33,062 bases of DNA from an uncultured Bacteroidota bacterium. GTDB taxonomy: Bacteria > Bacteroidota > Bacteroidia > Bacteroidales > FEN-979. Shown piece by piece: positions 17,654 through 33,062 of the stretch; position 1 is the stretch's first letter; each line of letters opens with the position of its first letter. The notes under the pieces are model-generated. The model was not told the DNA's origin. It did not search any database and saw only the letters and a list, made by a program, of their open reading frames with translations. The stretch lies in contig CALCGJ010000018.1 in assembly GCA_937900965.1 (NCBI GenBank), forward strand, positions 1-33,062, written 5' to 3'. The translations under genes and the position numbers were made by a program.

Positions 17654-19888
17654 ATGTCAGGTGTCAGCATAAAGGGGAAAACGAGCGGTTTCGGGACTGC
17701 TCCTGTGTTTTTTACCGCTATCGCCACTATTTTAGGCGCTATTCTCTTTCTGAGATTTGGGTTTGCAATTGGTACTCTCGGATTCTGGGGCGGCATCATG
17801 ATTATCATCCTGGCACATCTGGTAACCATCCCTACTGCACTGGCCATCTCCGAACTGGCTACCAACAAACGGGTGGAAGGAGGCGGGGAATATTTCATCA
17901 TCTCCCGGTCGTTTGGACTGAATATAGGCGCCACCATTGGATTCGCGCTGTTTTTCTCTCAAGCTATCAGCATTGCTTTTTATGTGATTGCCTTCACTGA
18001 AGCCTTCGAACCTTTTTTTAACTGGGTTCAAACAAGGTATGATGTCATCCTTCCCAGGCAGGTGATCAGTGTTCCTGTAATGCTCCTGCTATCTCTCCTG
18101 TTGATTCTGCGTGGCGCTAACATAGGCATCAAGGCACTCTATGCTGTAGTTAGTCTTCTGGGTGTATCCCTGGTCCTCTTTTTTGCCGGCAGCACCGACT
18201 ACTCCACCACCACAGGGTTCACCCTTGGAAATGCACAGTTCAGGAATACTGATGACTTTTTCTACGTTTTCGCCATTGTTTTTCCCGCGTTTACCGGGAT
18301 GACAGCAGGAGTTGGGCTATCGGGAGACCTGAAAAATCCTGCCCGTTCGATTCCAATGGGAACCATTGGGGCCACGTTGATAGGGATGATCGTGTATGTA
18401 TTCATCATATACAAGCTAACGGTATCGGCCTCTCCGGAAGACCTCGTCAATAATCAGCTGATCATGAGTAAGATAGCGATTGGAGGAGCCATTATCATCC
18501 CCCTTGGACTGGCTGCATCCACCCTATCTTCCGCTATTGGTTCGGCTATGATTGCTCCCCGCACTCTCCAGGCACTGGGAGGGGATCAGTCGTTTCCAAT
18601 GAAACGGGTCAACAATTTCCTCGGCCGTGGGCGTCACCAGGACGGTGAACCCCAGAACGCCTCCATCGTGGCATGTACAATTGCTATGTTCTTCGTGTTA
18701 CTTGGAAATGTAAATGCTGTGGCAGAAGTGATCTCCATGTTTTTCCTCGTTACCTATGGCTCTCTGAATCTTATCTCCTTTCTCAACCATTTTGGCTCTT
18801 CTCCATCCTACCGGCCCTCCTTTAAATCCAAATGGTATATTTCCCTGATCGGATTTGTTGTCTCTATCTGGGTGATGTTCAAAATCAATACCCCATACGC
18901 CCTGTCTGCCTACCTGATCATGGTCATCATCTACCTGATTATCAACTACTATCATAAGGACAGGAAGGGATTGGAAGCCATCTTCACCAACTCCATTTTC
19001 CAGATGAGCCGGAACCTGCAGGTTTACCTGCAAAAAAGCAGGAAAAGCCAAACCAACCATGAATGGCGTCCAAGTGCTATCTGCATCTCCCAACACTCTT
19101 TTGAACGCCGGACGGCATTCAATTTCCTGAACTGGATCTCATATAAATATGGTTTCGGGACTTATATCCATCGCATTGATGGTTATTATTCGCGCCAATC
19201 ACATCTTCAGTCGAAACATGAGATGCAGCGGTTACTGAGGTTGTTCGACACTGTTAGCAACCATGTTTACATCGACACGATCATCTCTCCCTCCTACTCT
19301 TCAGCTATTGTCACAGCCATACAGGTTCCGGGCATCGCAGGGATGGAGAACAACATGGTAATCTTCGAATTTGACAAAGAGAACCCTACGAACTTATCGG
19401 ATATAGTGGACAACTTTGGCCTGGTTAATTCAGGGGAATTTGATATCTGTATAGTTGGAAGCTCACGCCGTGAGATCAACACCAAGGGCGATCTTCATCT
19501 TTGGATTCACAGCAGTTTCGAAGAGAATGCCAACCTGATGATTCTCCTTGGGTTTATCATCCTTGGTCATTCCGACTGGCAGAAATCAACCATTAAAATC
19601 TTTGAGATCTGCAAACCTGAAAGGGTGGAAGAGAACCGCGAGAAGATGGAGAACCTTATCAAGACAGGGCGTTTACCTATAACAAGGAAAAATATTGAGA
19701 TCATCCTGGATGTCCCTGAAGTCAGCAAAAAAGATTTGATCAATCAAAAATCGGCTGATGCCGGTCTGACCATGATCGGCTTCGGGAAGGATACGTTGAA
19801 GCATAAGGAGACTGAACTATTTTCAGGTTACGACGCTCTTGGAACGGTCATCTTTGTCCATGCACACGGTCCTATGGAGATTGAATAG
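17654..19888 (+). CDS. Na-K-Cl cotransporter-like permease (SLC12/APC superfamily)
   Basis: The 744-residue protein has an N-terminal transport domain with about 12 membrane helices (residues 10-440) and a hydrophilic C-terminal domain (about 450-744). The first helix, FTAIATILGAILFLRFGFAIG, is the SLC12 signature, and GGEYFIISRSFGLNIGATIG and FPAFTGMTAGVGLSGDLKNP are other conserved parts of this family. The C-terminal domain is the soluble kind that regulates eukaryotic cation-chloride cotransporters. Substrates cannot be read from the sequence; amino acids or cation plus chloride are both possible. TACATTCG at 17626-17633 is a possible -7 box. The last 17 bases overlap the convergent ABC ATPase gene. 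Confidence 0.85.
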   Translation: MSGVSIKGKTSGFGTAPVFFTAIATILGAILFLRFGFAIGTLGFWGGIMIIILAHLVTIPTALAISELATNKRVEGGGEYFIISRSFGLNIGATIGFALFFSQAISIAFYVIAFTEAFEPFFNWVQTRYDVILPRQVISVPVMLLLSLLLILRGANIGIKALYAVVSLLGVSLVLFFAGSTDYSTTTGFTLGNAQFRNTDDFFYVFAIVFPAFTGMTAGVGLSGDLKNPARSIPMGTIGATLIGMIVYVFIIYKLTVSASPEDLVNNQLIMSKIAIGGAIIIPLGLAASTLSSAIGSAMIAPRTLQALGGDQSFPMKRVNNFLGRGRHQDGEPQNASIVACTIAMFFVLLGNVNAVAEVISMFFLVTYGSLNLISFLNHFGSSPSYRPSFKSKWYISLIGFVVSIWVMFKINTPYALSAYLIMVIIYLIINYYHKDRKGLEAIFTNSIFQMSRNLQVYLQKSRKSQTNHEWRPSAICISQHSFERRTAFNFLNWISYKYGFGTYIHRIDGYYSRQSHLQSKHEMQRLLRLFDTVSNHVYIDTIISPSYSSAIVTAIQVPGIAGMENNMVIFEFDKENPTNLSDIVDNFGLVNSGEFDICIVGSSRREINTKGDLHLWIHSSFEENANLMILLGFIILGHSDWQKSTIKIFEICKPERVEENREKMENLIKTGRLPITRKNIEIILDVPEVSKKDLINQKSADAGLTMIGFGKDTLKHKETELFSGYDALGTVIFVHAHGPMEIE

Positions 19889-20573
19889 CCTCATCGCTGA
19901 TCACCTTCCCATCCTCCACCTGGATTACCCTCCGGGCTTTATTCACCACCCGTTGATCGTGCGTGGAGAAAATGAATGTAATGTTCTCCTCCCGGTTCAG
20001 CTTCTCCATGATATCCAGTAAATTGCTTGTCGACTTTGAATCAAGGTTGGCAGTAGGTTCATCGGCCAGGATAAATTTTGGTTTCGATGCCAGTGCGCGG
20101 GCAACGGCCACGCGTTGTTGCTCACCACCGGAGAGTTTGTTGGGACGGCTGTTCAACCGATCTCCCAAGCCTACCGATTTCAGCAACTCAACAGTTCGGG
20201 AGTGACGTTTATCCTTGTCGTACCCCTGCAGACTCATGATGAATTCTACATTCTCATAGGCAGTCAGGACTGGGATCAAGTTGTAGGATTGAAAGACAAA
20301 ACCAATGTTGTTCAACCGGAAATTGATCAACTTACGACTTGAGAGCTCGCCAATATTTACTCCATCTATCCGGATAGAACCTTCCGAAGGTACATCCAAT
20401 CCGCCAATTAGATTCAGGAGGGTTGTTTTCCCACTTCCGGATGGTCCTACAATAGCTGCAAATTCTCCCTGCTTAAAAGAGAGGTCTACTCCGTTCACTG
20501 CATGAACGGCTACTTCTGAGTCGTTGTAGATCTTTTTAAGATCCTTGATTTCAATGATATTCATAGCATTCAT
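19872..20573 (-). CDS. ABC transporter ATPase, LolD/MacB type
   Basis: The 233-residue protein has Walker A GPSGSGKT at 43-50, a Q-loop in [20 protein letters not shown], signature [15 protein letters not shown], Walker [14 protein letters not shown] and the H-loop FIFSTHD. The LTAYENVEF and ANLDS features place it in the LolD/MacB/FtsE group, whose permeases are FtsX-like and use ATP to drive mechanical work on the periplasmic side rather than ordinary transport. It starts two bases after the stop codon of the second permease, so it is the last gene of the six-gene operon. An internal ATG at residue 4 is an equally possible start. Confidence 0.92.
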
Positions 20574-20574
20574 T

Positions 20575-21801
20575 TTATTCTGATCTGACGGCTTCTGCTG
20601 GATTGAGTTTCAACGCTTTTCTGGCCGGGTAGATAGAGGCCAGGATTCCAATACAGATGACCATAATGGTCAATGTGATAAAAAAGTTTAAATCCAGGTA
20701 TGGATACATGATCGGGTTGTACCCGATCTTTTCAAATCCCTCTGCAAAACTGCTGAGATTTATGCCGGTATAAGAGGTATAAAGGGTAAGAAAATAGCCG
20801 AGAGCCATGCCTACTATAGCCCCTGTTAGCGAAAGATAGACCGATTCCAGCATGATCATGAGGAAGATCCGGTGCTTATTCATACCGATCGCTGCCAGCA
20901 TACCTAGTTCCCGTGTGCGTTCCAGGATGGTCATCAACATGGTGTTGATGATTCCAAATCCCAATGCGAGCAGGATGATCGCCATAAACATGTAAAGCCA
21001 AACAGCAGTAAGATCTGCCATCATCCCGATCATTGGATCAATCTCTTTCCAATTCCTGACAAGCAATTCGGGGAATCCATCAGTCAACTCCTCCTGGACA
21101 TCAGTCACCTGATCCGGTTCAGAGAGTCTAACTACCAATTCCTGGTACTCTTGTGCGTTCATGATAAGTAACGATGCGATATCGGTTTTCCTTACGAAAA
21201 CATTCATCTCGTCAAATACGGAGTTACTCGTCCGGTAAATCCCGCAAATCCTGAAAGCTGCGCCGGTAAGGGTCCCCTCCTGATCCTGGAAAGTCAGTAC
21301 AATCTTTGACCGAAGCCGAACCTTAAGCTTCTCAGCCAGCGCTTCCCCAACCACGATCTGGTTTTTCTTTTCACCATTCAGGTAGGTGCCGCAAGAATCA
21401 CATATCATGGCTGATATCTCTGTAACCTGTCTTTCTTTTTCCGGGTCAACTCCGTAAATCATAACTCCGGTACCGGCATTGGCACTGTTTGCCATAGCCT
21501 GAAACTTGATCCGGGAAGACCAGCCCTTCACCTCCGGCAAAGAATCAAGTGTTTGTTCCAGGTTTTGAGCTTCCCCATCTATGGTATACTGAACCTCATT
21601 GTTGTCAATATATTTCGGGTTGTGTATCTGAATATGAGCTGTTTCCCGGCTGACCGCCTCTTTTATGCGTTGCTCCACCATCCCTTTCATGACCGCAGAG
21701 GAAAAAACCCCTCCAAACAGGCCTAATGTGATAGCCAGGATTATTACAAGGCTACGAACCTTGTTCCTCCAGATATTCTTCCAGGCAATTATCCAAATCA
21801 T
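20575..21801 (-). CDS. FtsX/LolE-type ABC permease (second of pair)
   Basis: The 408-residue protein shows the MacB-like permease layout: one N-terminal membrane helix (about 16-37, SLVIILAITLGLFGGVFSSAV), a large periplasmic domain (about 40-260), and three C-terminal helices with the conserved FtsX cytoplasmic loop ILERTRELGMLAAIGMNKHRIF. The end, SIYPARKALKLNPAEAVR, is the classic tail of this family. The periplasmic domain has a CDSC pair and one more cysteine, which could form a disulfide. It is expected to form a heterodimer with the permease encoded 12 bases upstream and to be driven by the ATPase encoded immediately downstream. Confidence 0.9.
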   Translation of the reverse strand: MIWIIAWKNIWRNKVRSLVIILAITLGLFGGVFSSAVMKGMVEQRIKEAVSRETAHIQIHNPKYIDNNEVQYTIDGEAQNLEQTLDSLPEVKGWSSRIKFQAMANSANAGTGVMIYGVDPEKERQVTEISAMICDSCGTYLNGEKKNQIVVGEALAEKLKVRLRSKIVLTFQDQEGTLTGAAFRICGIYRTSNSVFDEMNVFVRKTDIASLLIMNAQEYQELVVRLSEPDQVTDVQEELTDGFPELLVRNWKEIDPMIGMMADLTAVWLYMFMAIILLALGFGIINTMLMTILERTRELGMLAAIGMNKHRIFLMIMLESVYLSLTGAIVGMALGYFLTLYTSYTGINLSSFAEGFEKIGYNPIMYPYLDLNFFITLTIMVICIGILASIYPARKALKLNPAEAVRSE

Positions 21802-21813
21802 AACGGTAAGGTA

Positions 21814-23034
21814 TTATCTTCTTAATGCGTTAATTGGGGTTAGTCTGCTGATTTTCACTACAGGCAGCAGCATCACCACCAGCAATATGATGCATACTGT
21901 CATCGCCTGAGCAATGAAGTAGGATGGTTCCCAGGCCACCGGCATAATTGGTTCAAATCCCATGTTGATACTGGCCTCTGCCAACTCCCCTGTAAGCGGT
22001 ATAGGATTCAGGAAAAAGTAATAAAGTAGTGGGATAGCCGCTACAATTCCAGCGACCACACCCAGCAGACCAATGAAGAAGAGCTCGGTCACAACTATCC
22101 GGATCAACTTAAACTTTTGCATCCCGATAGCTATCATCATCCCGAACTCCCGGATTCGTTCGCTGAACATCATCAGGGTGGTTCCAAAGATTCCGAATCC
22201 AACAATCATATATAATATAGCAAGCATGATCAGCCCGGAGGCATTATCCGACTGGATTTGTTGTACAACATCAGGCATCATCTCCTCCCAGGTCATCACC
22301 TCATAGAGTTCAGGGTCCAGTTCTTGTTTCAAATGTTGTGCAACCCGCTTGTAGTTCTTCGTATCGTCAAGGTTGAACGCAAGAGATGTCAGCATGTTTT
22401 CAGCAGAAAATAGTGCCTGAGAGGCAGGCAGGCTGAGGAAAATCATCCGGCCATCAAGCTCAGGAGATGGAAAGTGAACGATTCCCCTTACCGGATACAC
22501 ACCGGCAGCGCTCACCCCATGATAGCCCTGTCCGATCAATACCAGGGTGTCTCCGATTCCGATCTTCAGGTATTGTGAAAGTTTCTGACTAATCAGTGCA
22601 CCATCATCGTCGGAAGTGAGGTACTCGCCTTCAACCATTTTTTTATGCAACCCTGTCAACTTGTCCTCTTCAGCCGGAATAACGCCATTAACCATCACGC
22701 CCTTTGTTTGTGTACCATAAGACCCCAAAGCAAATGATTCCAGTCGTGGTGCGTAGCTGGTTATTTCGGGGATCTCATTAATCCGGGTAATAATTTCAGG
22801 AGTGTATTCAAAAGTATTGTTGATAATCTTATCATCCCAATATCCGGTAGCATGAACCTGGAAATATCCTGAATAGGCATGCACAATGTTAACGACCATC
22901 AGATCGTAACTGCCTAATTGGAATGCGCGCATGAGCAGCGCCAGAAAAATGGCAAAAAATACGGAGGACGAAGTGATCAGTGTTCTTCGTTTATTTCTCC
23001 AGAGGTTTCTCCAGGCGATTTTTATTATTTCCAT
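21814..23034 (-). CDS. FtsX/LolC-type ABC permease (first of pair)
   Basis: The 406-residue protein has the same topology as its neighbour: N-terminal IAWRNLWRNKRRTLITSSSVFFAIFLALLM, a periplasmic domain of about 220 residues, then three helices with SERIREFGMMIAIGMQKFKLIR between the first two and VKISRLTPINALRR at the end. The two permeases are only distantly alike, which fits a heterodimer as in LolCDE. With the LolA-like protein encoded 61 bases upstream it suggests release of a lipid or lipoprotein from the inner membrane. The start ATG at 23034 is followed directly by the conserved N-terminus. Confidence 0.9.
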   Translation of the reverse strand: MEIIKIAWRNLWRNKRRTLITSSSVFFAIFLALLMRAFQLGSYDLMVVNIVHAYSGYFQVHATGYWDDKIINNTFEYTPEIITRINEIPEITSYAPRLESFALGSYGTQTKGVMVNGVIPAEEDKLTGLHKKMVEGEYLTSDDDGALISQKLSQYLKIGIGDTLVLIGQGYHGVSAAGVYPVRGIVHFPSPELDGRMIFLSLPASQALFSAENMLTSLAFNLDDTKNYKRVAQHLKQELDPELYEVMTWEEMMPDVVQQIQSDNASGLIMLAILYMIVGFGIFGTTLMMFSERIREFGMMIAIGMQKFKLIRIVVTELFFIGLLGVVAGIVAAIPLLYYFFLNPIPLTGELAEASINMGFEPIMPVAWEPSYFIAQAMTVCIILLVVMLLPVVKISRLTPINALRR

Positions 23035-23095: not shown

Positions 23096-23866
23096 TTAAC
23101 GCAGTTTGTTTGGATATTTCATATTCTGCTGGGAGAAAAAATTCTCCTGCAACCGAATGTCAAACTTAGCACTTATGATGTCAACCAGCGTTTTCTGGTT
23201 GGGTTTGTCCTCAGGAATGATCTCAAAATGGGTTGGGATCTTCCGGTCATACATAAATCTGATATCGGAAAGTATGTGTGTTTTAACCAGGTAACCATCT
23301 TCATCGAAAAACTCTGTGCGTAGTTGGTAATACTCTTCTTTACTCACCCACATGATGATCTTCCCCCATACAACGGCCGCCTCTTCCTTTGGATCCAATT
23401 GAATTTTATAGCAATCAAAATCATCAATCGTTTCGTTATCAATTATTTTATGGGTGTAATCCACCACGATGGAGGACTCTTTCAGGATATCATCGTTGGA
23501 ATAATCCGATCCCATCCAGCCCTGTGACATCATGGATGGAGGGAGTTTGATCATGCGGTTGATAGTAGGATTCCAACTCCACATGTCCTTCTTCAGCTTC
23601 AAGAATGATTGTCCGCTCTCCTTCGAAGGGGCAGTGATAAGTGTCAGGGCATAGTCTCTGCCTTTAGCCCAATTTTTAAAACTGACTGTGCGTTGCCATG
23701 TTGGTCTGACCACAGTCATCACCATCTCCATCTCGCTCGACTCCCCCTCCATCTTGTCATGTGCTTTTTTGATTATCTCTTTAGCGTCCTGAGCCTGAAT
23801 CAGAGCAGGTAACAATATGATGGATGTTAAAAAGGTGAGTTTGAGAATTTGTTTTATTTTAATCAT
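23096..23866 (-). CDS. LolA-like periplasmic outer-membrane lipoprotein-sorting protein
   Basis: From the ATG at 23864-23866 it has 256 residues. I chose this start because AGGAGGAAC lies directly in front on the minus strand; the longer frame from 23896 reads through that binding site. A signal peptide (MIKIKQILKLTFLTSIILLPALIQAQ) is followed by AKEIIKKAHDKMEGESSEMEM and the MTVVRPTWQRTVSFKNWAKGRDY, KLKKDMWSWNPTINRMIKLPPSMMSQGWMGSDYSNDDI and ILSDIRFMYDRKIPTHFEI blocks typical of the LolA-like family often annotated 'outer membrane lipoprotein-sorting protein'. Such proteins cradle acyl chains in a half-barrel. In other genomes they sit beside MMPL or FtsX-type exporters. Its cargo here is unknown. 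Confidence 0.85.
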   Translation of the reverse strand: MIKIKQILKLTFLTSIILLPALIQAQDAKEIIKKAHDKMEGESSEMEMVMTVVRPTWQRTVSFKNWAKGRDYALTLITAPSKESGQSFLKLKKDMWSWNPTINRMIKLPPSMMSQGWMGSDYSNDDILKESSIVVDYTHKIIDNETIDDFDCYKIQLDPKEEAAVVWGKIIMWVSKEEYYQLRTEFFDEDGYLVKTHILSDIRFMYDRKIPTHFEIIPEDKPNQKTLVDIISAKFDIRLQENFFSQQNMKYPNKLR

Positions 23867-23880
23867 TGTTCCTCCTGGGG

Positions 23881-24468
23881 TTATTTTAGGTTGCAATATT
23901 TCTGAATTACCAGCTTCTTTATTTTATCAATTGGATATTTGTCCGGGTTGAATACATAATTTATGGCAATTCCATCCAGAATCGTATGAAAAATCCATGT
24001 TTCACTCTCCGGATCTGTAAAATTGTGTATCTGGAAATATGTACCAATCATTTTCCACATTTTGGATGTCAGTACCTCCAACTGTAGTTTTTCCATCATC
24101 TCCTGGGCAGAAGGCTGCATCAGCAACATGTACAGGAATTTGTAGTAGTCAATATTCTTCATCAGGTTTTCAACCTGCTGTTCAATAAAATATTCCATCT
24201 CTTCCGTGCTCAGAATGCCATCACCATCAGGATCAAAATAATCATACAGGTGGTTGATAAAGGATTTAATAAGCTCGTTGAGAAGATCTTCCTTGTTGGT
24301 GAAATAGTTGTAGATCAACCCTTTTGAGATTCCTGCTTTCAGTGCGATGTCCTGCATTGTAGTATGATTAACACCCTGCCTGGCAAATAGCTCCAATGCC
24401 GCATTCAGGATCTCCTCCTTTCGATCCTCCCGAATTTTTGCATATTGTTCTTTCGTTTTTGGTGCCAT
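23881..24468 (-). CDS. TetR-family regulator with an EF-hand calcium-binding loop
   Basis: This 195-residue protein has a standard TetR DNA-binding domain: REDRKEEILNAALELFARQGVNHTTMQDIALKAGISKGLIYNYFTNKEDLL (residues 14-63). Directly after helix 4, residues 79-90 read DPDGDGILSTEE, a complete 12-residue EF-hand loop with Asp at 1, 3 and 5, Gly at 6, Leu at 8 and Glu at 12. It is framed by helical stretches (LLNELIKSFINHLYDYF and MEYFIEQQVENLMKNI). TetR proteins normally bind small organic ligands, so calcium binding would be unusual. It is the second gene of the operon, starts 10 bases after the barrel-protein stop, and probably binds the palindrome at 25682-25701. Calcium sensing is inference from the motif. 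Confidence 0.88.
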   Translation of the reverse strand: MAPKTKEQYAKIREDRKEEILNAALELFARQGVNHTTMQDIALKAGISKGLIYNYFTNKEDLLNELIKSFINHLYDYFDPDGDGILSTEEMEYFIEQQVENLMKNIDYYKFLYMLLMQPSAQEMMEKLQLEVLTSKMWKMIGTYFQIHNFTDPESETWIFHTILDGIAINYVFNPDKYPIDKIKKLVIQKYCNLK

Positions 24469-24477
24469 AGTTTTCCT

Positions 24478-25668
24478 TTAAAAATTCCATTTCAACCTGA
24501 GGGCAGAGATACAAGCCTGAAAATAGATATTCTGATCCTGTTGTGAGCCCGTGTTGGCAAACCTCCCGTTAAAGTATTGGAGGAAGAAACTCAGATCTAT
24601 ATTTTGCCGGATCGAATAGTTTACATTGGGTCCGATGAAGTATCCGTTCAGATCCGGGTAATACATTACAGCCAGGTTAATATCAAGCAGTGGGGTGATT
24701 GGATAGGTTCCCTGGAGAAAGATGTTCCACTCAGAAAAAGAGAGCGTTTTTGGTGAAGGTGGAGCCTGGTATACAGAGAGCAGGGTTTCAGGTTGGAAAT
24801 TGGGCGGCAACTGATTGTAAAATACCTGAAAGATCAGGTACAGTGAATTTGAAAACGAATAATCGAGCCCCATTGTGGCCAGCAACACCCCGCTTGTGTC
24901 CCTGGATAAATTTTTTGGATAAAAATAACTTACCTCACCTCTGAATCCTGCCTGACTTATGTTTCCTGACCACCCGGTTCCAATAACCCAATCCTGATCA
25001 TTAACAAGACCGCTCATAAACTGAATATCATATTGCCAGAGATTGAAGCGACCGAGCCCAGCTATGGTGATCTTCCCCTGACTGTTCCACTTCACGGCCG
25101 CTTCAACGGTGGAGGTATAACCTGGATAGAATTGCAAACGGATTGCGTCACTGCCGGGGCGTTCCGGATAATCAAAGTCATAAAATGAGTAGGTATTGAA
25201 AATATCGTTTGGATTCCAAACGATCGACTGCCCCCAATTTATCCGTTGACGACCTACAGTTATCTGAACTTTTCCGGTGGTTAAAGAGAACCAGGCCCGA
25301 TCAAATTGAGAAACCATCAGAAAAGATTTACCGGAGAGTATACTCCATGTCATGTTGACTAATCCCGGGTCTGTTGTCAGAGATCCTTTGTATGCAGGAT
25401 TCGAAATAAAACCCTGTCCGAAAAGGAAGCGATTCCTCATCCCTAATCCCATCCGGAACACCCTGCCCGGGTACCATGAAAAATCGAGACGATTGTGCAC
25501 TTCATTGTCCAGGATCCAGGGATCGTTGATCTTCTGAAACTGGACCATTTGCATGTCGTTCAGATAGCCTTTGAGCTCCCAGCTTTTGTCCTTCCCGGAG
25601 CTCTGAGCTAGTGCTGACTGTGAAGTAATCAGAAGTAATATGAAAAGGATATGTTGAATTTTTGACAT
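24478..25668 (-). CDS. Outer-membrane beta-barrel protein, first gene of the export operon
   Basis: From the ATG at 25666-25668 it has 396 residues: a signal peptide (MSKIQHILFILLLITSQSALAQ), then a chain of amphipathic strands rich in aromatic residues and ending ...LRLKWNF, with the terminal Phe typical of BAM-inserted barrels. WSLTTGKVQITVGRQRINWGQSIVWNPNDIF-like motifs (QITVGRQRINWGQ) resemble porin-like proteins of unknown role. I recognise no named family. The longer frame from 25716 would place the operator and -7 box inside the gene, so the shorter start is far more likely. As first gene of the operon with LolA-like and FtsX-type partners, it may be the outer-membrane receiver or outlet of the system. 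Confidence 0.75.
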   Translation of the reverse strand: MSKIQHILFILLLITSQSALAQSSGKDKSWELKGYLNDMQMVQFQKINDPWILDNEVHNRLDFSWYPGRVFRMGLGMRNRFLFGQGFISNPAYKGSLTTDPGLVNMTWSILSGKSFLMVSQFDRAWFSLTTGKVQITVGRQRINWGQSIVWNPNDIFNTYSFYDFDYPERPGSDAIRLQFYPGYTSTVEAAVKWNSQGKITIAGLGRFNLWQYDIQFMSGLVNDQDWVIGTGWSGNISQAGFRGEVSYFYPKNLSRDTSGVLLATMGLDYSFSNSLYLIFQVFYNQLPPNFQPETLLSVYQAPPSPKTLSFSEWNIFLQGTYPITPLLDINLAVMYYPDLNGYFIGPNVNYSIRQNIDLSFFLQYFNGRFANTGSQQDQNIYFQACISALRLKWNF

Positions 25669-25681
25669 GCGCCAAAATGCA

Positions 25682-25701
25682 TTGACTAAACGGTCAGTCA
25701 A
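25682..25701. promoter_or_regulatory. Palindromic TetR-type operator
   Basis: TTGACTAAACGGTCAGTCAA has outer arms TTGACT/AGTCAA and, read on the minus strand, the form TTGACTGACCGTTTAGTCAA, a spacing and GAC-GTC pattern common for TetR/AcrR operators. It overlaps the -7 box and the expected start of transcription and lies 14 bases before the first start codon, ideal for repression. The regulator is encoded in the same operon. Confidence 0.7.
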
Positions 25702-25763: not shown

Positions 25764-26876
25764 CTAATAAAAACTTGGACATTCGAGCGGCCCATATCCT
25801 CTGGATCTGCCCGAAGGGACAAATCCACGAGTTCCACTGCCACCGCCATTACCGCCACCGAAGAATGAGAATCCACCGAATTCAAGAACCAGGCTAATCT
25901 CATGAGCTCCTCCAGTCCCCTGCATAACACCGGCGATTTGGAGATCGTAGCTGTATATGAACTTGATACTCATATCCTCCATGAAATTGTACCGGTATCC
26001 GGCCAGCAAAGCCACTGAATTATTCGTGGTACCTGTCATAGTTGTTTTATACCATGCACCCAGATAAATATTGAACTTCAACATGTTCAAGCCTATTTCG
26101 AGTGAATTGAGGTTTGCCTGGTTGAGGAACATGAATCCCGGACTGATCATCAACGGATCACTGCTCCCGCCACCCATGCTGGATGAAGAACCATATCCAG
26201 CCGTAAAAACAGCGTCGCCATGTACAACAAACTTCCTGGGGTATTTAGCACTTCCGTCAGAGAGTAAAGAAATATCAGGTTTAAACATGTGGTCGACAGC
26301 AAAACCAATTGATCCGGTAAGGCTTCCAACCTCATTGGAAAACTGCAGAATACCACCTGCACCAAAATCGGGTACAACCCTGGAGTTGGCATCAGGAGGA
26401 ATAAAAGAAGTTTGGTAAATAGCGCCATACTTTGGATCGAGCTGATCGGCGAAAACCAGGTCGTCCCAGTTGACTTTTCGTTGAATAATCGCGGCTTTGA
26501 TACCCACTTGTGCTACCATAAATGTTGTAATTGGTATCCTGACACCGATAGTCAAAGCAGCCTGCAGGGTATTGATCAGCCCCAACCCGGGTGAATCTGA
26601 ATTGATCATAATCCCGATACCACCTGCTCCAGGCAGATTTCTGTCCCCAATATCTGCCGCAAAATAGTACGACTTAAAATCGATGGGTAAAGCGGGCCAT
26701 TGATCCCGAAACAGGAACCTTGCCCGCAACCCTGTATTTATCCCGGTATAGGCCGGGTTGTAATAAAGGGGCGAGCTAAAGAACTGGGAATAGTTTACAT
26801 CCTGCGCCAGGGTAGTCTGAGATACACCCAGGAATCCCAGGATCAATAAGCATGGATATATAAAAACCTTTTTCAT
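25764..26876 (-). CDS. PorP/SprF-family type IX secretion-associated membrane protein
   Basis: The 370-residue protein starts with a signal peptide (MKKVFIYPCLLILGFLGVSQTTLAQ) and the family hallmark DVNYSQFFSSPLYYNPAYTGI, followed by RARFLFRDQWPALP, FGAGGILQF and other strand motifs of the PorP/SprF outer-membrane barrels. In Flavobacterium, SprF is needed for secretion of the adhesin SprB, and genes of this family generally follow the gene of the large protein they serve. Here it lies 18 bases after the giant PKD-repeat gene, in the same direction, so that protein is the expected client. The C-terminus is glycine-rich (SFFGGGNGGGSGTRGF), an extension not needed for the barrel. A strong terminator closes the unit. 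Confidence 0.9.
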   Translation of the reverse strand: MKKVFIYPCLLILGFLGVSQTTLAQDVNYSQFFSSPLYYNPAYTGINTGLRARFLFRDQWPALPIDFKSYYFAADIGDRNLPGAGGIGIMINSDSPGLGLINTLQAALTIGVRIPITTFMVAQVGIKAAIIQRKVNWDDLVFADQLDPKYGAIYQTSFIPPDANSRVVPDFGAGGILQFSNEVGSLTGSIGFAVDHMFKPDISLLSDGSAKYPRKFVVHGDAVFTAGYGSSSSMGGGSSDPLMISPGFMFLNQANLNSLEIGLNMLKFNIYLGAWYKTTMTGTTNNSVALLAGYRYNFMEDMSIKFIYSYDLQIAGVMQGTGGAHEISLVLEFGGFSFFGGGNGGGSGTRGFVPSGRSRGYGPLECPSFY

Positions 26877-26894: not shown

Positions 26895-29800
26895 TTAACG
26901 AATTAATGTGACAGTACCCATGGTTTTATATTCACCCTGGCCAATATCGGAACCATTCCAGGGCGAATTATCAATGAATGTGGCACTAACTTTCCACATA
27001 TAATTCCCCTGAGGCATTAAGTTCCCTTCGTAGATGCCATCCCACCCTTCTGCCGGACTTCCCTGCGAATCGAGTTTTGTGGACTCCCACATAAGGTGAC
27101 CGGAAGAATTAAAGACCTGAATATAATACTTCTTCAAATTGACACCTGCTGGCTTGAACAATCTCACTGCCAGGTTGGTGCTACTTGGAGCAAATGCATT
27201 GGGGATATATAGCCCGGTGAACAGGAGTTCATATTCAAAGAAGGTGGTATCTGTACACCCGAACTCATTCAGTGAGATCAGCTCAATCAGATAGGTTCCA
27301 TCTTCTGCATAGGTAACCACTGGATTCTCTTCCGCAGAGGTATTCCCATTCCCGAAATTCCACCAATAGCTATCAGCCCCAGTCGAAAGATTTTGCATTT
27401 GAAGTTTCCCATTCATGCCATCAATATATTCGGTGATGTTGAAAGCACTGAGTGGTGTCACATTTACAACAACAGTTGAATCAACCGTGTCCATACATCC
27501 ATTCAGATCCTTTACAATCATCCGTACGGAATAGGTCCCAACGGAGTCATAGATGTATATCGGATCCTGTAAATTGGATGTATCAGTCTTGATACCCGGT
27601 ACGCCAAAATTCCATTTCCAGAATGCAAATGTTGTATCAGCTTCGCTGGAAAGATCTGTAAATTCTGTAGGATCTCCCTGGCAAGGTGTCGTACTTTCAA
27701 AATGGGCATCAGGTATATCAAACACCCTTGTTGGTTTAGTAATTGAATCCATACATCCCCACTGGTTAGCGACAATCATCCTGACATCATAATCTCCCGG
27801 GGTCATATAAATATGTGACGGATTCTTCACTGTTGAGGTATCCAGTACGCCTGACCCGGGTTCCCCAAAGTTCCAATACCACGATGTATTGGGATCCCCA
27901 AATGTGTAAGAGGTATCTATAAACAGAGAGGTCTGGTTGAAACACCTGGCTATGTTGGAGAAATAGGGCTCAGGAGTAGGTCTGATTCGTATCATCTGAT
28001 AAGAACTGTCAGTAAACGGTACCCCGCTGACTGTTGCATTGACAATCAGTTTCACAATGAAATCTCCGCCATTAGCATATTCATGAGAAACGGTTTGGGT
28101 ATATGTGGTATATGTAGTATCATTTCCATCCCCGAAAATCCATTGCCACTGGTTGATGCTTTCAACCGGATAGGAACTGTCGGCAAAAATGATCGGGTTC
28201 CTGGCACACAACAGGGTGTCGGATACAAAAACGGCATTGATGCAGGCATACCGTTCGATAGTATCAGTTATCACATCAACACAACCAAAATTATTTGTCA
28301 CCCCGAGGGTTACAATATAGGTACCCAGGTTGGGGTATAGGTGTGAAGTACTTCCCGGACCCGGTGCGAGTATAGTCTCCGGGGGAGATCCATCTCCAAA
28401 GTTCCATTCCCAGCTTGCTATTGAATTCCCGCCTGCAATACTCATGTCGGTAAAATCGACGATGCTGTCGCAAGGTTCAGAGACAAACGTAAAGGCAGGT
28501 TTTGGCAGATCATATACGGTCACCTCCCTGTAGATGCTATCAACACAGTTATCTGAATTCCAGGCTTTCAGTTTGACTACAAAGGTACCTGGGTCAGTAT
28601 ACACGTGGGTTGGATTATACAGGAAAGAGGTATTGTTTGGCACAGATGCCGGGTTTCCAAAATTCCAGGCTACAGAGTAAAGTGAATCTCCCATGGCCAG
28701 GTTTTGCGTATAGAAATGAGTCGGATTTCCAAGGCATACCGTGTCATTCGTAAAGGTATATTCAAAACCGGGTTTCACATACACACTGTCAATGATCGTA
28801 TCCATACAACCGTAGTTATCGGTTACGATCAATGTTACAGCGTAGGTTGTGTCATTCTCAGTAAATGTATGGACTGGATTCACCCCTGTGGAGGTATATC
28901 CCGGTTCAAAGATCCATAACCTTGTCACAATGGTGGAGCCAGCTCCAACAGACTGATCCTGGAAGTTAACCCGACCGGCCGGACAGAAAAAGTTGATATA
29001 GGAAAAGTCAGCTGTTGGGTTTTGTCTCACCGTAACCGGCATGATCACAGAATCTTTGCAGTTAAACAGGTTGGTAATACGCAGTAAAACACTGTACGTA
29101 CCAGGGGCCGTGTAGGTGTATATAGGATTTTGAACGTTCGAGGTACCTACTCCATCCCCGAAATCCCAGAACCAGGAGCCAATGTTACTTCCCGGAGCAA
29201 TGGAGAGGTCGGTAAATACAGTTTCGAATCCAACGCAGGCAGATGAAAATTCAAACATCGCAACAGGTCTTGGATTTACCGCGATCTGCCTTGTTGTATC
29301 GTCTGTACACCCATCAGAATTTGTTGCGGTGAGCATGACATTGAAGGTGCCGATGTTGGTAAAGGTATGTGTTGGGTTTTGCAGCGTTGAGGTATTATTT
29401 CCTCCTGAAGCCGGATCACCGAAATTCCACAGCCATCCGGTGATTGTACCAGAACCGGTTGTAGAGGCATCCGTAAAGGATGTCGGGAAATTGAAACAGG
29501 CCGTATCTGCTGAATAAACCGCTGTGGGTGCATCAAATATCGTAATATCCTGTGATATGGAATCGATGCAACCCTCCACATTGGTTATGAAAAGGTTTAC
29601 AGTATATGTACCGCCAGATGAGAAGGCATGGGACGGATTCTGCAACACAGAGGTGTTGTTTACCCCTGAGGCAGGATCTCCGAAATCCCAGCTCCAGGTG
29701 ATGATGGATCCACCGCCGTTTTGTTGTGAAAGATCAGTGAATCCAACCCCGACCTTTGCACAGCCGCCTGACTGAAAAGAGAAGTTTGCCAGCGGAGCAT

Positions 29801-32800
29801 AGGTGATGTTGACAGGATTCATTTTCTGGGCTGTACACCCGTCACTGTTGGTCACTACCAATGTCACAACATAATTGCCCCCGTTCGCATAGGCATGGGA
29901 GATATTGGGATTCGCCGGATAGGTAACTGTGACTGGAGGTGTCCCATCCCCGAAATTCCATACCCAATCGGTGATGTACCCATGGGGCGAGTTGGACTGA
30001 TCTATAAACTGAATTGAATCACCGGCACAGGCAGCAGATACATAGCTAAATGCAGCTGTAAGAGCCGGATGTACAATAACCTGTTTGGATGTATCCTTTG
30101 TACACCCGTTGGATGTTGTAACAGTAAGGATGACTGTATACAGTCCAGCGTTGTTATAAAGATGCGTTGGAGTAGCGCCCGAACCGGTCTGTCCGTCACC
30201 AAACTGCCAGAAACGGCTGGCAATTGTTCCGAAAGTTGTTGTTGAAAGATCGATAAACTGGGTCAAATTACCCAGGCAGGCTGTGTCGGCGCTAAAATTC
30301 GCCACCGGCCTTGAAGCAATTGTAACAACATTGACCACGGTATCCCGGCATCCGTTAGCGTTGGTGGTTATTAACCGCACATCAAAGACCCCTGCATTGG
30401 AGAAGGTATGTGATGGATTTTGTGCATTGGAGATGTTATTCAGTCCCGAAGGCGGATCATCAAAATTCCAGGCCCACTGCACGATCACTCCCCCGCCGTT
30501 TGGCTGGGTCAGATCAGTGAACGGTACGAGATTCTGTTCACAGGGCATTGCGGGAAATGAGAAATTGGCAATGGGGGATGGTGTGCTGAAAACATCATGC
30601 TCGATATAATTTGTACAACCATGGCTGGTCGTTACCGTTAACCGAACAGTATGCGTAAGGGCCAGACCTACGAATGTATGTGAAATATTAGGATTGGCAG
30701 GATAGTTGACCGTTTGTGTTATCCCGTCTCCAAAATCCCATACCCAGGTAGCTATATAGTCCTGGAATCCTGGGACTGTTGAAGCGAGGCTGGTATAGTT
30801 AACAACCGCTCCTACACAACTTGGATTGCTGAAACTAAACTCTGATATCGGCAATGGATAGACAAGCACATTTTTCGAGATACTGTGTGTGCAGCCGTCA
30901 AGATTGGTAACGGTCAGGGTAACCAGTTTGGTTCCGTAAGTCGCATACAGGTGCGTTGGATTTGACTGTCCGCTTAACGGTGAGCCATCCCCAAAGTCCC
31001 ACGAATAGGTAAGTGTAGGGGTGGTCGTGCCAGAGGTCGAAAGGTCGATAAATGTAGTAATTAAGCCCCGGCAGGCCGTATCTGCCCTGAAATTGGCAAC
31101 CGGCAGCGGGTTCACAATCACAGTCTTGCCGACAGTATGATCGCAGTTATTGGCATTGGTAGCCGTCAGGGTCACTGAGTAGGCTCCGGCTGTAGCGAAG
31201 GTGTGCGATGGGTTTGGTAATGTTGAGGAGTTATTGACACCCGACGAGGGATCTCCAAAGCTCCAGAGGTAACCGGTAATGGCTCCTCCGCCATTTTGCT
31301 GACTCAGGTTGGTAAATGCGATTGGTTGATTCACGCAATGTACAGCTGCGTATTCATAATTGGCAACGGGGGCTGGAACCAGGGTTACCGTTTTCTGAAT
31401 GGTTTTCGAACAACTGTCATTGGACCATACCGTAAGCTGGACATTGTAACTGGTTGATCCTCCAGCGAATGTGTGCAGGACATTGGGGGAGTTAGGCAAA
31501 ACAACAGTTTGGGTTGTTCCGTCTCCGAAATCCCAAAACCATTTAGCTATATATCCGGTAAAGCCCACCGGAATGTAGGATTGATTTGTAAACTGCATCG
31601 GATCTCCTTGGCATGTTGGAGCAGCCCAGGTGAAATTAGCAACCGGAAGCGGATTAACGCGTACAGTATGGAAAACCGAATTCTGGCATCCGTGATGATC
31701 TACTACGGTTAACGTAACCACGTAAATTCCGGCGGAAGTATACAGGTGCTGAGTTGTAACCGGGTCTGTAACCGCAGGTGTTCCGTCTCCAAAATCCCAG
31801 GACCATGTTGCGATTGAGTCGGCAGTGGTGATGGTGTTTGTTGCTGTAAACGTTACCAGTGAATTCAAACAAGCCGTATCATGCGTGAAATCGATGGGCG
31901 GGGAAGGAAATACATAGACTGGTTTGATGATTGTATCCAGGCAATTGTTGAAGTTCTTTATAATAAGCCTGACCATATAGGTGGCGTTGCCATTGGCAAA
32001 CAGGTGAGTCGGGTGCTGAAGGGAGGAGGTGTTGTTTATTCCTGAACCGGGATCAGCAAAATTCCACTTCCAGCTGATGATATTGCCTCCTCCGTTAGCC
32101 GTAGAGAGGTCGGTAAAGGAGACAGGCTGGTTCCGGCATGGGATGGAATAATCGAAGTTAGCGGCCGGATTTGGTTTGATGTAAACCTGGGCCGTATAAT
32201 CATCCGTATATCCGCTATTGTCAATGATATACAAGGTTACATCGAAGGTATCGATGGTAGTATAGGTATGACATACATTGGGAACATTCGGGAACTGGAT
32301 GGTATCAAAAGGTGATCCGTCGCCAAAGTCCCAGATCCATGTAACAATGTATCCAAAAGGTGGCGTAGGCACAGAACTCAGATCGGTGAAACAGACCGGA
32401 GATCCGTCGCAAACCGGGGAGTTGGATGAGAAAAATGCAAGAGGTACTGAAGGTACCGTGACCGGGTAGGTGACAGAGTTGGTACAACCCACAGTATCAA
32501 CCACACTTAAAGTAACAAAGAAGGTGCCGGCTGCCGGATAGGTATGAATGGGATTGTGCCCGTATCCAAAGGTGCCGTCACCGAAGTTCCAGAAGACCAT
32601 ATTTCCGATCATGGGGATCGGAGTTACAACTGTATCAATATGAAAATGAATTTCATTATTCTGTGCTCCATAATTCCATGTGTAATCCACTCCAGGTGCA
32701 TCAAAGAGGATGACCTCTTTGTAAATTGTATCCGGGCAGCCAGTTGAGTTAATTGAGACGAGCATTACGTTATAGGAGCCAACAACTGTGAAAATGTGCC

Positions 32801-33062
32801 ATGGATTCTTTAATGTGGAGGTATTGGATCCTGAGCCGGGATCATCGAAATTCCAATAATAGGATGTAATAGCAGGTCCGTTATTAGGGATAGAGAGGTT
32901 GTTGAATGTTGTTGTATCTCCAACACAGGCGGCCTGGTAACTGAAATCCGATATCGGTGAAGGATCCAATTGAATATTCCTTGTAATGGAATCACGGCAA
33001 CCCTGGTTTGTTACAACTGTAAGGCGGGTCGGGTATGGGCCGAGACCAGGGTATGTATAGGT
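26895..33062 (-). CDS. Giant PKD-repeat surface protein with gliding-motility C-terminal domain (5' end outside window)
   Basis: The frame is open from the right window edge to TAA at 26895-26897, at least 2055 residues; the ATG-like TTG at 32969 is not the start, because PKD sequence continues upstream of it. I count 22 complete PKD-type domains plus part of another, each centred on WxFGDG or WNFxDPxSG and ending in a cysteine; most domains also have a cysteine near their start, suggesting one disulfide per domain. The final 108 residues (GLYIPNAFAPSS, YIQVFNSSGHLMWES, GWDGIYEGNLMPQGNYMWKVSA, GTVTLIR) are the CHU_C type B sorting domain for type IX secretion. It is probably a long cell-surface adhesin or carbohydrate-binding fibre exported with the PorP/SprF protein encoded next. 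Confidence 0.93.
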   Translation of the reverse strand, partial: TYTYPGLGPYPTRLTVVTNQGCRDSITRNIQLDPSPISDFSYQAACVGDTTTFNNLSIPNNGPAITSYYWNFDDPGSGSNTSTLKNPWHIFTVVGSYNVMLVSINSTGCPDTIYKEVILFDAPGVDYTWNYGAQNNEIHFHIDTVVTPIPMIGNMVFWNFGDGTFGYGHNPIHTYPAAGTFFVTLSVVDTVGCTNSVTYPVTVPSVPLAFFSSNSPVCDGSPVCFTDLSSVPTPPFGYIVTWIWDFGDGSPFDTIQFPNVPNVCHTYTTIDTFDVTLYIIDNSGYTDDYTAQVYIKPNPAANFDYSIPCRNQPVSFTDLSTANGGGNIISWKWNFADPGSGINNTSSLQHPTHLFANGNATYMVRLIIKNFNNCLDTIIKPVYVFPSPPIDFTHDTACLNSLVTFTATNTITTADSIATWSWDFGDGTPAVTDPVTTQHLYTSAGIYVVTLTVVDHHGCQNSVFHTVRVNPLPVANFTWAAPTCQGDPMQFTNQSYIPVGFTGYIAKWFWDFGDGTTQTVVLPNSPNVLHTFAGGSTSYNVQLTVWSNDSCSKTIQKTVTLVPAPVANYEYAAVHCVNQPIAFTNLSQQNGGGAITGYLWSFGDPSSGVNNSSTLPNPSHTFATAGAYSVTLTATNANNCDHTVGKTVIVNPLPVANFRADTACRGLITTFIDLSTSGTTTPTLTYSWDFGDGSPLSGQSNPTHLYATYGTKLVTLTVTNLDGCTHSISKNVLVYPLPISEFSFSNPSCVGAVVNYTSLASTVPGFQDYIATWVWDFGDGITQTVNYPANPNISHTFVGLALTHTVRLTVTTSHGCTNYIEHDVFSTPSPIANFSFPAMPCEQNLVPFTDLTQPNGGGVIVQWAWNFDDPPSGLNNISNAQNPSHTFSNAGVFDVRLITTNANGCRDTVVNVVTIASRPVANFSADTACLGNLTQFIDLSTTTFGTIASRFWQFGDGQTGSGATPTHLYNNAGLYTVILTVTTSNGCTKDTSKQVIVHPALTAAFSYVSAACAGDSIQFIDQSNSPHGYITDWVWNFGDGTPPVTVTYPANPNISHAYANGGNYVVTLVVTNSDGCTAQKMNPVNITYAPLANFSFQSGGCAKVGVGFTDLSQQNGGGSIITWSWDFGDPASGVNNTSVLQNPSHAFSSGGTYTVNLFITNVEGCIDSISQDITIFDAPTAVYSADTACFNFPTSFTDASTTGSGTITGWLWNFGDPASGGNNTSTLQNPTHTFTNIGTFNVMLTATNSDGCTDDTTRQIAVNPRPVAMFEFSSACVGFETVFTDLSIAPGSNIGSWFWDFGDGVGTSNVQNPIYTYTAPGTYSVLLRITNLFNCKDSVIMPVTVRQNPTADFSYINFFCPAGRVNFQDQSVGAGSTIVTRLWIFEPGYTSTGVNPVHTFTENDTTYAVTLIVTDNYGCMDTIIDSVYVKPGFEYTFTNDTVCLGNPTHFYTQNLAMGDSLYSVAWNFGNPASVPNNTSFLYNPTHVYTDPGTFVVKLKAWNSDNCVDSIYREVTVYDLPKPAFTFVSEPCDSIVDFTDMSIAGGNSIASWEWNFGDGSPPETILAPGPGSTSHLYPNLGTYIVTLGVTNNFGCVDVITDTIERYACINAVFVSDTLLCARNPIIFADSSYPVESINQWQWIFGDGNDTTYTTYTQTVSHEYANGGDFIVKLIVNATVSGVPFTDSSYQMIRIRPTPEPYFSNIARCFNQTSLFIDTSYTFGDPNTSWYWNFGEPGSGVLDTSTVKNPSHIYMTPGDYDVRMIVANQWGCMDSITKPTRVFDIPDAHFESTTPCQGDPTEFTDLSSEADTTFAFWKWNFGVPGIKTDTSNLQDPIYIYDSVGTYSVRMIVKDLNGCMDTVDSTVVVNVTPLSAFNITEYIDGMNGKLQMQNLSTGADSYWWNFGNGNTSAEENPVVTYAEDGTYLIELISLNEFGCTDTTFFEYELLFTGLYIPNAFAPSSTNLAVRLFKPAGVNLKKYYIQVFNSSGHLMWESTKLDSQGSPAEGWDGIYEGNLMPQGNYMWKVSATFIDNSPWNGSDIGQGEYKTMGTVTLIR

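Follow-up and report, generated by a model that had tools for sequence, protein, structure and literature searches.

A conserved EF-hand-type loop in the hinge of a TetR-family regulator encoded with LolA-like and FtsX-like genes in Bacteroidota

The regulator gene, its loop and its operon

The window, i.e., the whole stretch of 33,062 nucleotides analysed here, is one entire contig of the genome of an uncultured Bacteroidota bacterium. Named close relatives of this genome are assemblies assigned to Bacteroidales or Bacteroidetes. The reverse strand of the window encodes a regulator of 195 aa (23881–24468), identified by its open reading frame, Pfam and fold matches. The TetR_N DNA-binding domain (PF00440, residues 20–66, 24271–24411, reverse strand) was detected at 5.4e-19 with 68.2 bits against a cut-off of 24, which places the protein in the TetR family. 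Residues 79–90 (DPDGDGILSTEE, 24199–24234, reverse strand) fill every position of the canonical 12-residue EF-hand pattern, and the canonical loop assigned to this site in the initial annotation was borne out by the open reading frame and its translation. The EF-hand_7, EF-hand_6 and EF-hand_1 families gave matches in residues 65–95 (0.0013, 0.0047 and 0.0061, respectively), all of them short of the Pfam cut-offs. As EF-hand_1 reached 16.5 bits relative to a curated cut-off of 25.4, the loop is named EF-hand-type here and the protein is not regarded as a member of the EF-hand family.

The regulator gene is part of a reverse-strand operon. In this genus, its first gene (24478–25668) encodes a protein with a signal-peptide-like N terminus, recognised from its open reading frame and synteny, for which no Pfam family was found and whose outer-membrane label we infer. 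The regulator is followed by a LolA-like periplasmic protein (23096–23866), corresponding to the Pfam outer membrane lipoprotein-sorting protein (PF17131, 2.4e-50) and representing the only match in this 96% complete genome. Further genes code for two FtsX/LolCE-like permeases, permease 1 (21814–23034; PF02687 and PF12704, TIGR02212 at 1.3e-26) and permease 2 (20575–21801; TIGR02212 at 1.3e-41), and a LolD-like ABC ATPase (19872–20573; TIGR02211 at 5e-70). All three TIGR matches lay below the NCBIfam equivalog cut-offs, with 142.9 of 362.45 bits for the better permease and 235.4 of 307.75 bits for the ATPase, and the genes are therefore named Lol-like and not Lol. A predicted operator, the palindrome TTGACTAAACGGTCAGTCAA (25682–25701, unstranded), ends 13 nt upstream of the first gene's ATG and is the sole match to this sequence in the window with up to 3 mismatches allowed. 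Elsewhere in the window, the reverse strand carries an ORF of 370 aa (25764–26876), the product of which resembles type IX secretion membrane proteins of the PorP/SprF type, and an ORF of 2024 aa (26895–32969), which appears to consist of many PKD-like repeats with a C-terminal end resembling a sorting domain.

Distribution and conservation of the loop and the operator

Relatives of the regulator were searched for in its own genome and 60 relatives (a match at 1e-10 in 24 of 61), in a public one-genome-per-species set (27 loci), in 393 genomes from the order (hits at E 1e-30 in 108) and in 395 from the phylum (hits in 35, the own genome included), the profile used for the order and phylum consisting of 23 rows both with and without the loop. 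No relatives were found in viral contigs. The 206 ORF hits were reduced to 156 unique proteins, and the removal of two fragments (L023 and L025, both without the strict loop) left 154 rows for a quick tree, computed without the loop columns and rooted at the midpoint. For the strict loop we used the textbook pattern D.[DNS].[DNS]G.[ILVMF]...[DE], fixed at a time when the first relatives were already known.

The strict loop was present in 70 of the 156 proteins, a fraction which reflects the sampling and the query and is no population frequency. All 70 fell inside one clade of 118 rows (SH-aLRT 89) and none among the 36 tree rows outside it. In the remaining 48 clade rows the strict loop was missing or degenerate. 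The refutation test named in the initial annotation, i.e., whether homologues located beside LolA-like/FtsX genes lack the acidic positions, was withstood by 70 of the 118 clade rows. The loop-bearing rows represented 34 family codes of one Bacteroidota order and the clade 53 codes, 12 of them mixed; six clade rows from named loci carry no family code. The 65 loop-bearing relatives outside the genus shared 27–43% identity with the window regulator. The distribution of the loop label required at least 23 changes on the best tree compared with a mean of 51 for shuffled labels, none of 500 shuffles being as low, and 2 changes were forced by the well-supported branches alone.

Several sister genera of the same family (L013, L014, L016, L017, L019 and L021) had decayed loops still starting with (D/N/V)P(D/E), which form a natural series of loop degeneration.

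The operon was mostly retained in both groups of clade members when genes on the same strand within 7 kb were counted, some of the stretches ending early. The LolA-like gene was present in 68 of 70 loop-bearing and 46 of 48 loop-poor rows (114 of 118 in total), almost always directly after tetR. The corresponding numbers were 64 and 45 for permease 1, 58 and 44 for permease 2, 56 and 41 for the ATPase and 54 and 36 for the outer-membrane-type protein. The LolA-like gene was missing in L063, L183 and L116, with no hits across 2.5–4.6 kb downstream, and in L167, in which the permeases and the ATPase are present. In the genus of the window (five rows, L005, L006, L007 and L008 among them) the gene of the outer-membrane-type protein comes first, while in the rest of the clade its relative lies downstream, after the ATPase gene. 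Among the 38 rows outside the clade (the two fragments included), a LolA-like gene followed the regulator on the same strand in 21 and lay divergently beside it in 8 more, and therefore the link between the regulator and the operon probably predates the loop.

The palindrome at 25682–25701, already pointed out in the initial annotation, proved to be real, with a similar motif conserved in the clade. In a first scan of the 250 nt preceding tetR, TGACN(4-12)GTCA was detected in 76 of 116 rows, compared with a mean of 1.8 and a maximum of 7 in 100 sets of shuffles. A refined pattern, TGACYRAMCGKTYAGTCA with up to two mismatches, was drawn from the first-scan sites and the window copy. With this pattern, 105 of the 112 clade members from other genera (L147 omitted, as its upstream sequence was lacking) showed a TGACCGACCGTTCAGTCA-like palindrome upstream of tetR, compared with none of 2240 single-base shuffles. 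Column counts of the sites yielded TTTGACCGACCGTTCAGTCA(T/A)A. The frequency did not depend on the loop, the pattern being present in 61 of 65 rows with and 44 of 47 rows without it outside the genus. In the five genus members the motif, with no more than one mismatch, precedes the relocated outer-membrane gene instead of tetR. A palindromic operator at the own operon is a feature of the TetR family and the motif fits this feature. Taken together, these data make control of the operon by its own regulator very probable, irrespective of whether the loop is present.

Genome-wide, operator hits with up to 2 mismatches numbered 3 on the forward and 2 on the reverse strand, compared with 3 and 3 for a reversed-pattern control, and the only exact copy was that in the window. 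A regulon extending beyond the operon was thus not supported.

Within the clade, the loop was conserved as a block. Counted across the 118 rows, six strict positions were kept in 70, five in 9, four in 5, three in 7, two in 18, one in 5 and none in 4, so that 27 rows retained two or fewer. The variance of the number of positions kept was 3.64, whereas 2000 column shuffles gave a mean of 1.02 and a maximum of 1.54. An earlier simulation on the tree with a stationary root did not reach the observed variance in any of 1000 runs, with 26 of the 1000 having as few intermediate rows as observed; since its frequencies did not match the data, the simulation was redone with a fixed loop-bearing root, i.e., with the loop assumed to be ancestral. 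Six independent positions evolving at fitted rates then gave a mean variance of 1.19, a maximum of 2.35 and no more than 44 full loops, and none of 2000 runs reached the data. A test of pairs on supported branches yielded just 2 pairs per comparison, in the four loop comparisons listed for position 79, and did not confirm a joint loss of the positions. The fitted gain rates were zero for 4 of the 6 loop positions under the loop-bearing root, which agrees with a single origin of the loop followed by several losses without proving it.

A domain insertion as the source of the loop was not supported. The 12 loop columns were gapless in 43 of the 48 loop-poor clade rows, and the loop therefore probably arose in place; a one-residue insertion near the loop was noticed in a few rows.

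The loop rows also resembled an EF-hand in features beyond those of the search pattern. Position 12 was Glu in 70 of 70 loop rows even though the pattern permitted Asp, position 9 was T/S/E/N/D in 69 of 70, and positions 13, 16 and 17 together with the residue preceding position 1 were hydrophobic in all 70 (Ala, Cys and Tyr counted). In 90 rows of less than 60% identity, the entropy was 1.6–2.4 bits at positions 1, 3, 5, 6, 8, 9, 11 and 12 and 2.9–3.4 bits at positions 2, 4, 7 and 10; in these thinned rows the loop was less conserved than the DNA-binding domain. Among the 33 flanking positions (64–78 and 91–108), 16 had at least 3 bits and the lowest values belonged to regularly spaced helix positions. 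Synonymous codons were exchanged among the loop rows, with both Asp codons and all four Gly codons in use. An alternative is a metal-free acidic loop which caps a helix or offers a contact surface to a partner protein and resembles an EF-hand by accident; in its favour, Asp-Pro and Ser/Thr-x-x-Glu are ordinary helix-capping motifs. Capping, however, needs neither the joint presence of Asp/Asn at positions 1, 3 and 5, Gly at 6, an aliphatic residue at 8 and Glu at 12, nor their loss as a block, and this explanation is considered improbable.

EF-hand_1 matched 69 of the 70 loop-bearing members with E up to 0.1 (best 1.8e-7) and 6 of the 48 loop-poor clade rows, and it was not found among 25 of 46 families for the 36 rows outside the clade. 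Of ten loop-bearing rows scanned singly, two exceeded the cut-off of 25.4 bits (L077 with 30.7 and L136 with 26.2 bits). At most one strict loop per chain was present among the rows listed, and the loops are accordingly not paired within a chain as in EF-hand proteins. Of 200,000 shuffled versions of the regulator, 78 contained the strict loop anywhere, as did 3 of the 1224 other mechanical ORFs (at least 200 aa) from the fetched loci.

A lone acidic loop arising by chance in a single protein was also considered. DxDxDG loops of the calcium type are argued to arise repeatedly by convergence, with only two contexts found intracellularly in large numbers, and provide examples of such a loop inside an unrelated fold, as in the regulator; a term search of the main text of the same source for TetR, transcription, DNA-binding and repressor gave no match (PMC3123361). 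The pattern turned up in 3 of the 1224 control ORFs, whereas 70 of the 118 clade rows carry it at one and the same site, which speaks strongly the other way. Chance was rejected as scarcely credible in view of the conservation, the control ORFs, the column shuffles and the tree simulations.

Predicted structure and the nearest known proteins

The AlphaFold2 model of the regulator, built from a ten-row alignment, had a mean pLDDT of 86.6 and a pTM of 0.76. It contained ten helices, including the predicted entering helix (residues 59–75, 24244–24294, reverse strand), which corresponds to TetR alpha4 and follows the DNA-binding domain, and the predicted exiting helix (residues 88–104, 24157–24207, reverse strand), corresponding to alpha5. 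The latter starts at loop position 10, i.e., in the helix-loop-helix register of an EF-hand. These predictions agree with the suggestion that the loop separates the first helix beyond the DNA-binding domain from its successor. The model confidence was lowest for residues 71–80 (67) and amounted to 78 for residues 81–90. In the model of the loop-less L037 (pLDDT 88.0), a short helix was present at its residues 73–79, near the corresponding place, which constitutes weak evidence. Overall, the data support a loop of the EF-hand type that lies in the alpha4/alpha5 hinge and is conserved beside LolA-like/FtsX genes.

The TetR fold, all-helical with about nine to ten helices, was recognised by Foldseek, with a TM of 0.72 to FadR of Bacillus subtilis (PDB 3whb). 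A structural aligner gave a Z of 16.1 and an rmsd of 3.6 over 179 residues for FadR of B. halodurans (5gpc, with 5gpa as a further entry), AcrR and TtgR being tied within 1 Z. Comparisons by profile, by Foldseek and by the structural aligner all placed FadR near the top, and it has the TetR fold and DNA-binding domain in common with the window regulator; its entry titles refer to fatty-acid regulation and stearoyl-CoA. Unlike the window regulator, FadR 3whb had no EF-hand loop in the alignment, and no solved TetR structure carrying the loop was found in 3 alignments out of 277 matches.

Canonical EF-hand proteins of the calmodulin type possess a 12-residue DxDxDGxLxxxE-type loop, which is also present in the regulator in the predicted helix-loop-helix register. 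In contrast to calmodulin, the loop of the regulator is single, unpaired and embedded in TetR alpha4/alpha5. A further comparison is DREAM/KChIP3, described as an EF-hand transcriptional repressor under the control of Ca2+ and a eukaryotic neuronal calcium sensor. DREAM/KChIP3 is not known to have the TetR fold. EfhP of Pseudomonas aeruginosa is described as a bacterial Ca2+-binding EF-hand protein which links Ca2+ to gene expression, and not as a DNA-binding regulator, whereas the loop studied here lies within the regulator itself. No EF-hand TetR regulator was found among the matches listed in the open-licence literature (titles and starts of abstracts), consistent with the earlier remark that calcium-gated TetR proteins are not known as an established class.

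A candidate calcium switch in the allosteric hinge

In our reading, the loop is a selected cation site in the allosteric hinge with a role which is probably regulatory and possibly just structural. The regulator would be a one-component TetR-type repressor whose alpha4-loop-alpha5 hinge has been turned into a divalent-cation site, most likely for Ca2+. Judging from the operator and the synteny, a dimer would bind the conserved palindrome before the operon and repress it. The ion would be held by D79, D81, D83, the carbonyl of residue 85, residue 87 via water and E90, the same loop positions that provide the ligands in canonical EF-hands. In TetR proteins, alpha4 relays the ligand signal from the core to the DNA-reading heads, and the occupancy of the site by Ca2+ could fix the alpha4/alpha5 angle and hence how far apart the two heads lie. 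An increase in cytosolic Ca2+, e.g., in a cell with a leaking envelope, would most probably release the repressor and switch on the LolA/LolCDE-like operon, the direction of the response being a guess. We put the probability that the hinge site acts as a Ca2+-responsive repressor switch at roughly one half, with repression, the binding of Ca2+, the gating and its direction all inferred.

The main alternative is that Ca2+ or Mg2+ is always bound and merely stiffens the alpha4/alpha5 turn, the true signal coming from a different ligand, possibly a lipid or acyl-CoA bound in the usual TetR pocket. This would suit the place of acyl-CoA regulators of the FadR type among the nearest proteins by profile and fold (AcrR and TtgR tied within 1 Z), the single and unpaired state of the loop and the persistence of the operon and the operator where the loop is lost. 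It would, however, make the placement in the allosteric hinge coincidental, and it fits less well with Glu at position 12 in 70 of 70 loop rows, as Glu at this position is the choice of Ca2+-type and not of Mg2+-type EF-hands. Such a constitutive structural role is regarded as a real but less likely possibility and the Ca2+-responsive repressor is favoured over it. Given the neighbours of the FadR type, a second input of a lipid kind is conceivable.

The repeated absence of the loop in lineages which kept the operon and the operator fits an accessory input that some of them dispensed with, and equally fits a stabilising site open to replacement. The 48 clade rows (of 118) without the strict loop mostly keep the operon and the operator; the regulator can therefore work without it, which counts against the loop being indispensable. 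EF-hands usually operate in pairs and the presence of one loop per protomer also counts against the Ca2+-responsive switch, as does the low model confidence at residues 71–80. Cytosolic free Ca2+ is usually submicromolar; the affinity of a single unpaired loop for Ca2+ may be too weak and Mg2+ could occupy the site. A Na/Ca exchanger (PF01699) gave no match in the 96% complete genome of the window, a further point against the switch, and 11 of 14 control genomes have one.

With the Ca2+-responsive switch as the favoured reading, a broader scenario may tentatively be drawn, for which the odds seem not quite even. The hinge of a group of one-component TetR repressors would have evolved in place into a calcium switch of the EF-hand type, through which cytosolic Ca2+ directly gates an operon for envelope lipid/lipoprotein transport, with repeated losses of the loop in one Bacteroidota order.

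The question whether cytosolic Ca2+ is a genuine signal in bacteria has long stood open, one reason being the small number of transcription factors known to bind Ca2+ directly. The conserved calcium-type loop in the hinge suggests, at the level of sequence comparison, an undescribed bacterial coupling of calcium to gene control. With a protein that is small and soluble, an operator already predicted and relatives without the loop to serve as natural controls, the system would make bacterial Ca2+ signalling testable in one laboratory. If the proposed switch is true, the regulator would clearly exemplify how a calcium loop can arise within the allosteric lever of an already known regulator fold, and it may offer a genetically encoded Ca2+-responsive repressor.
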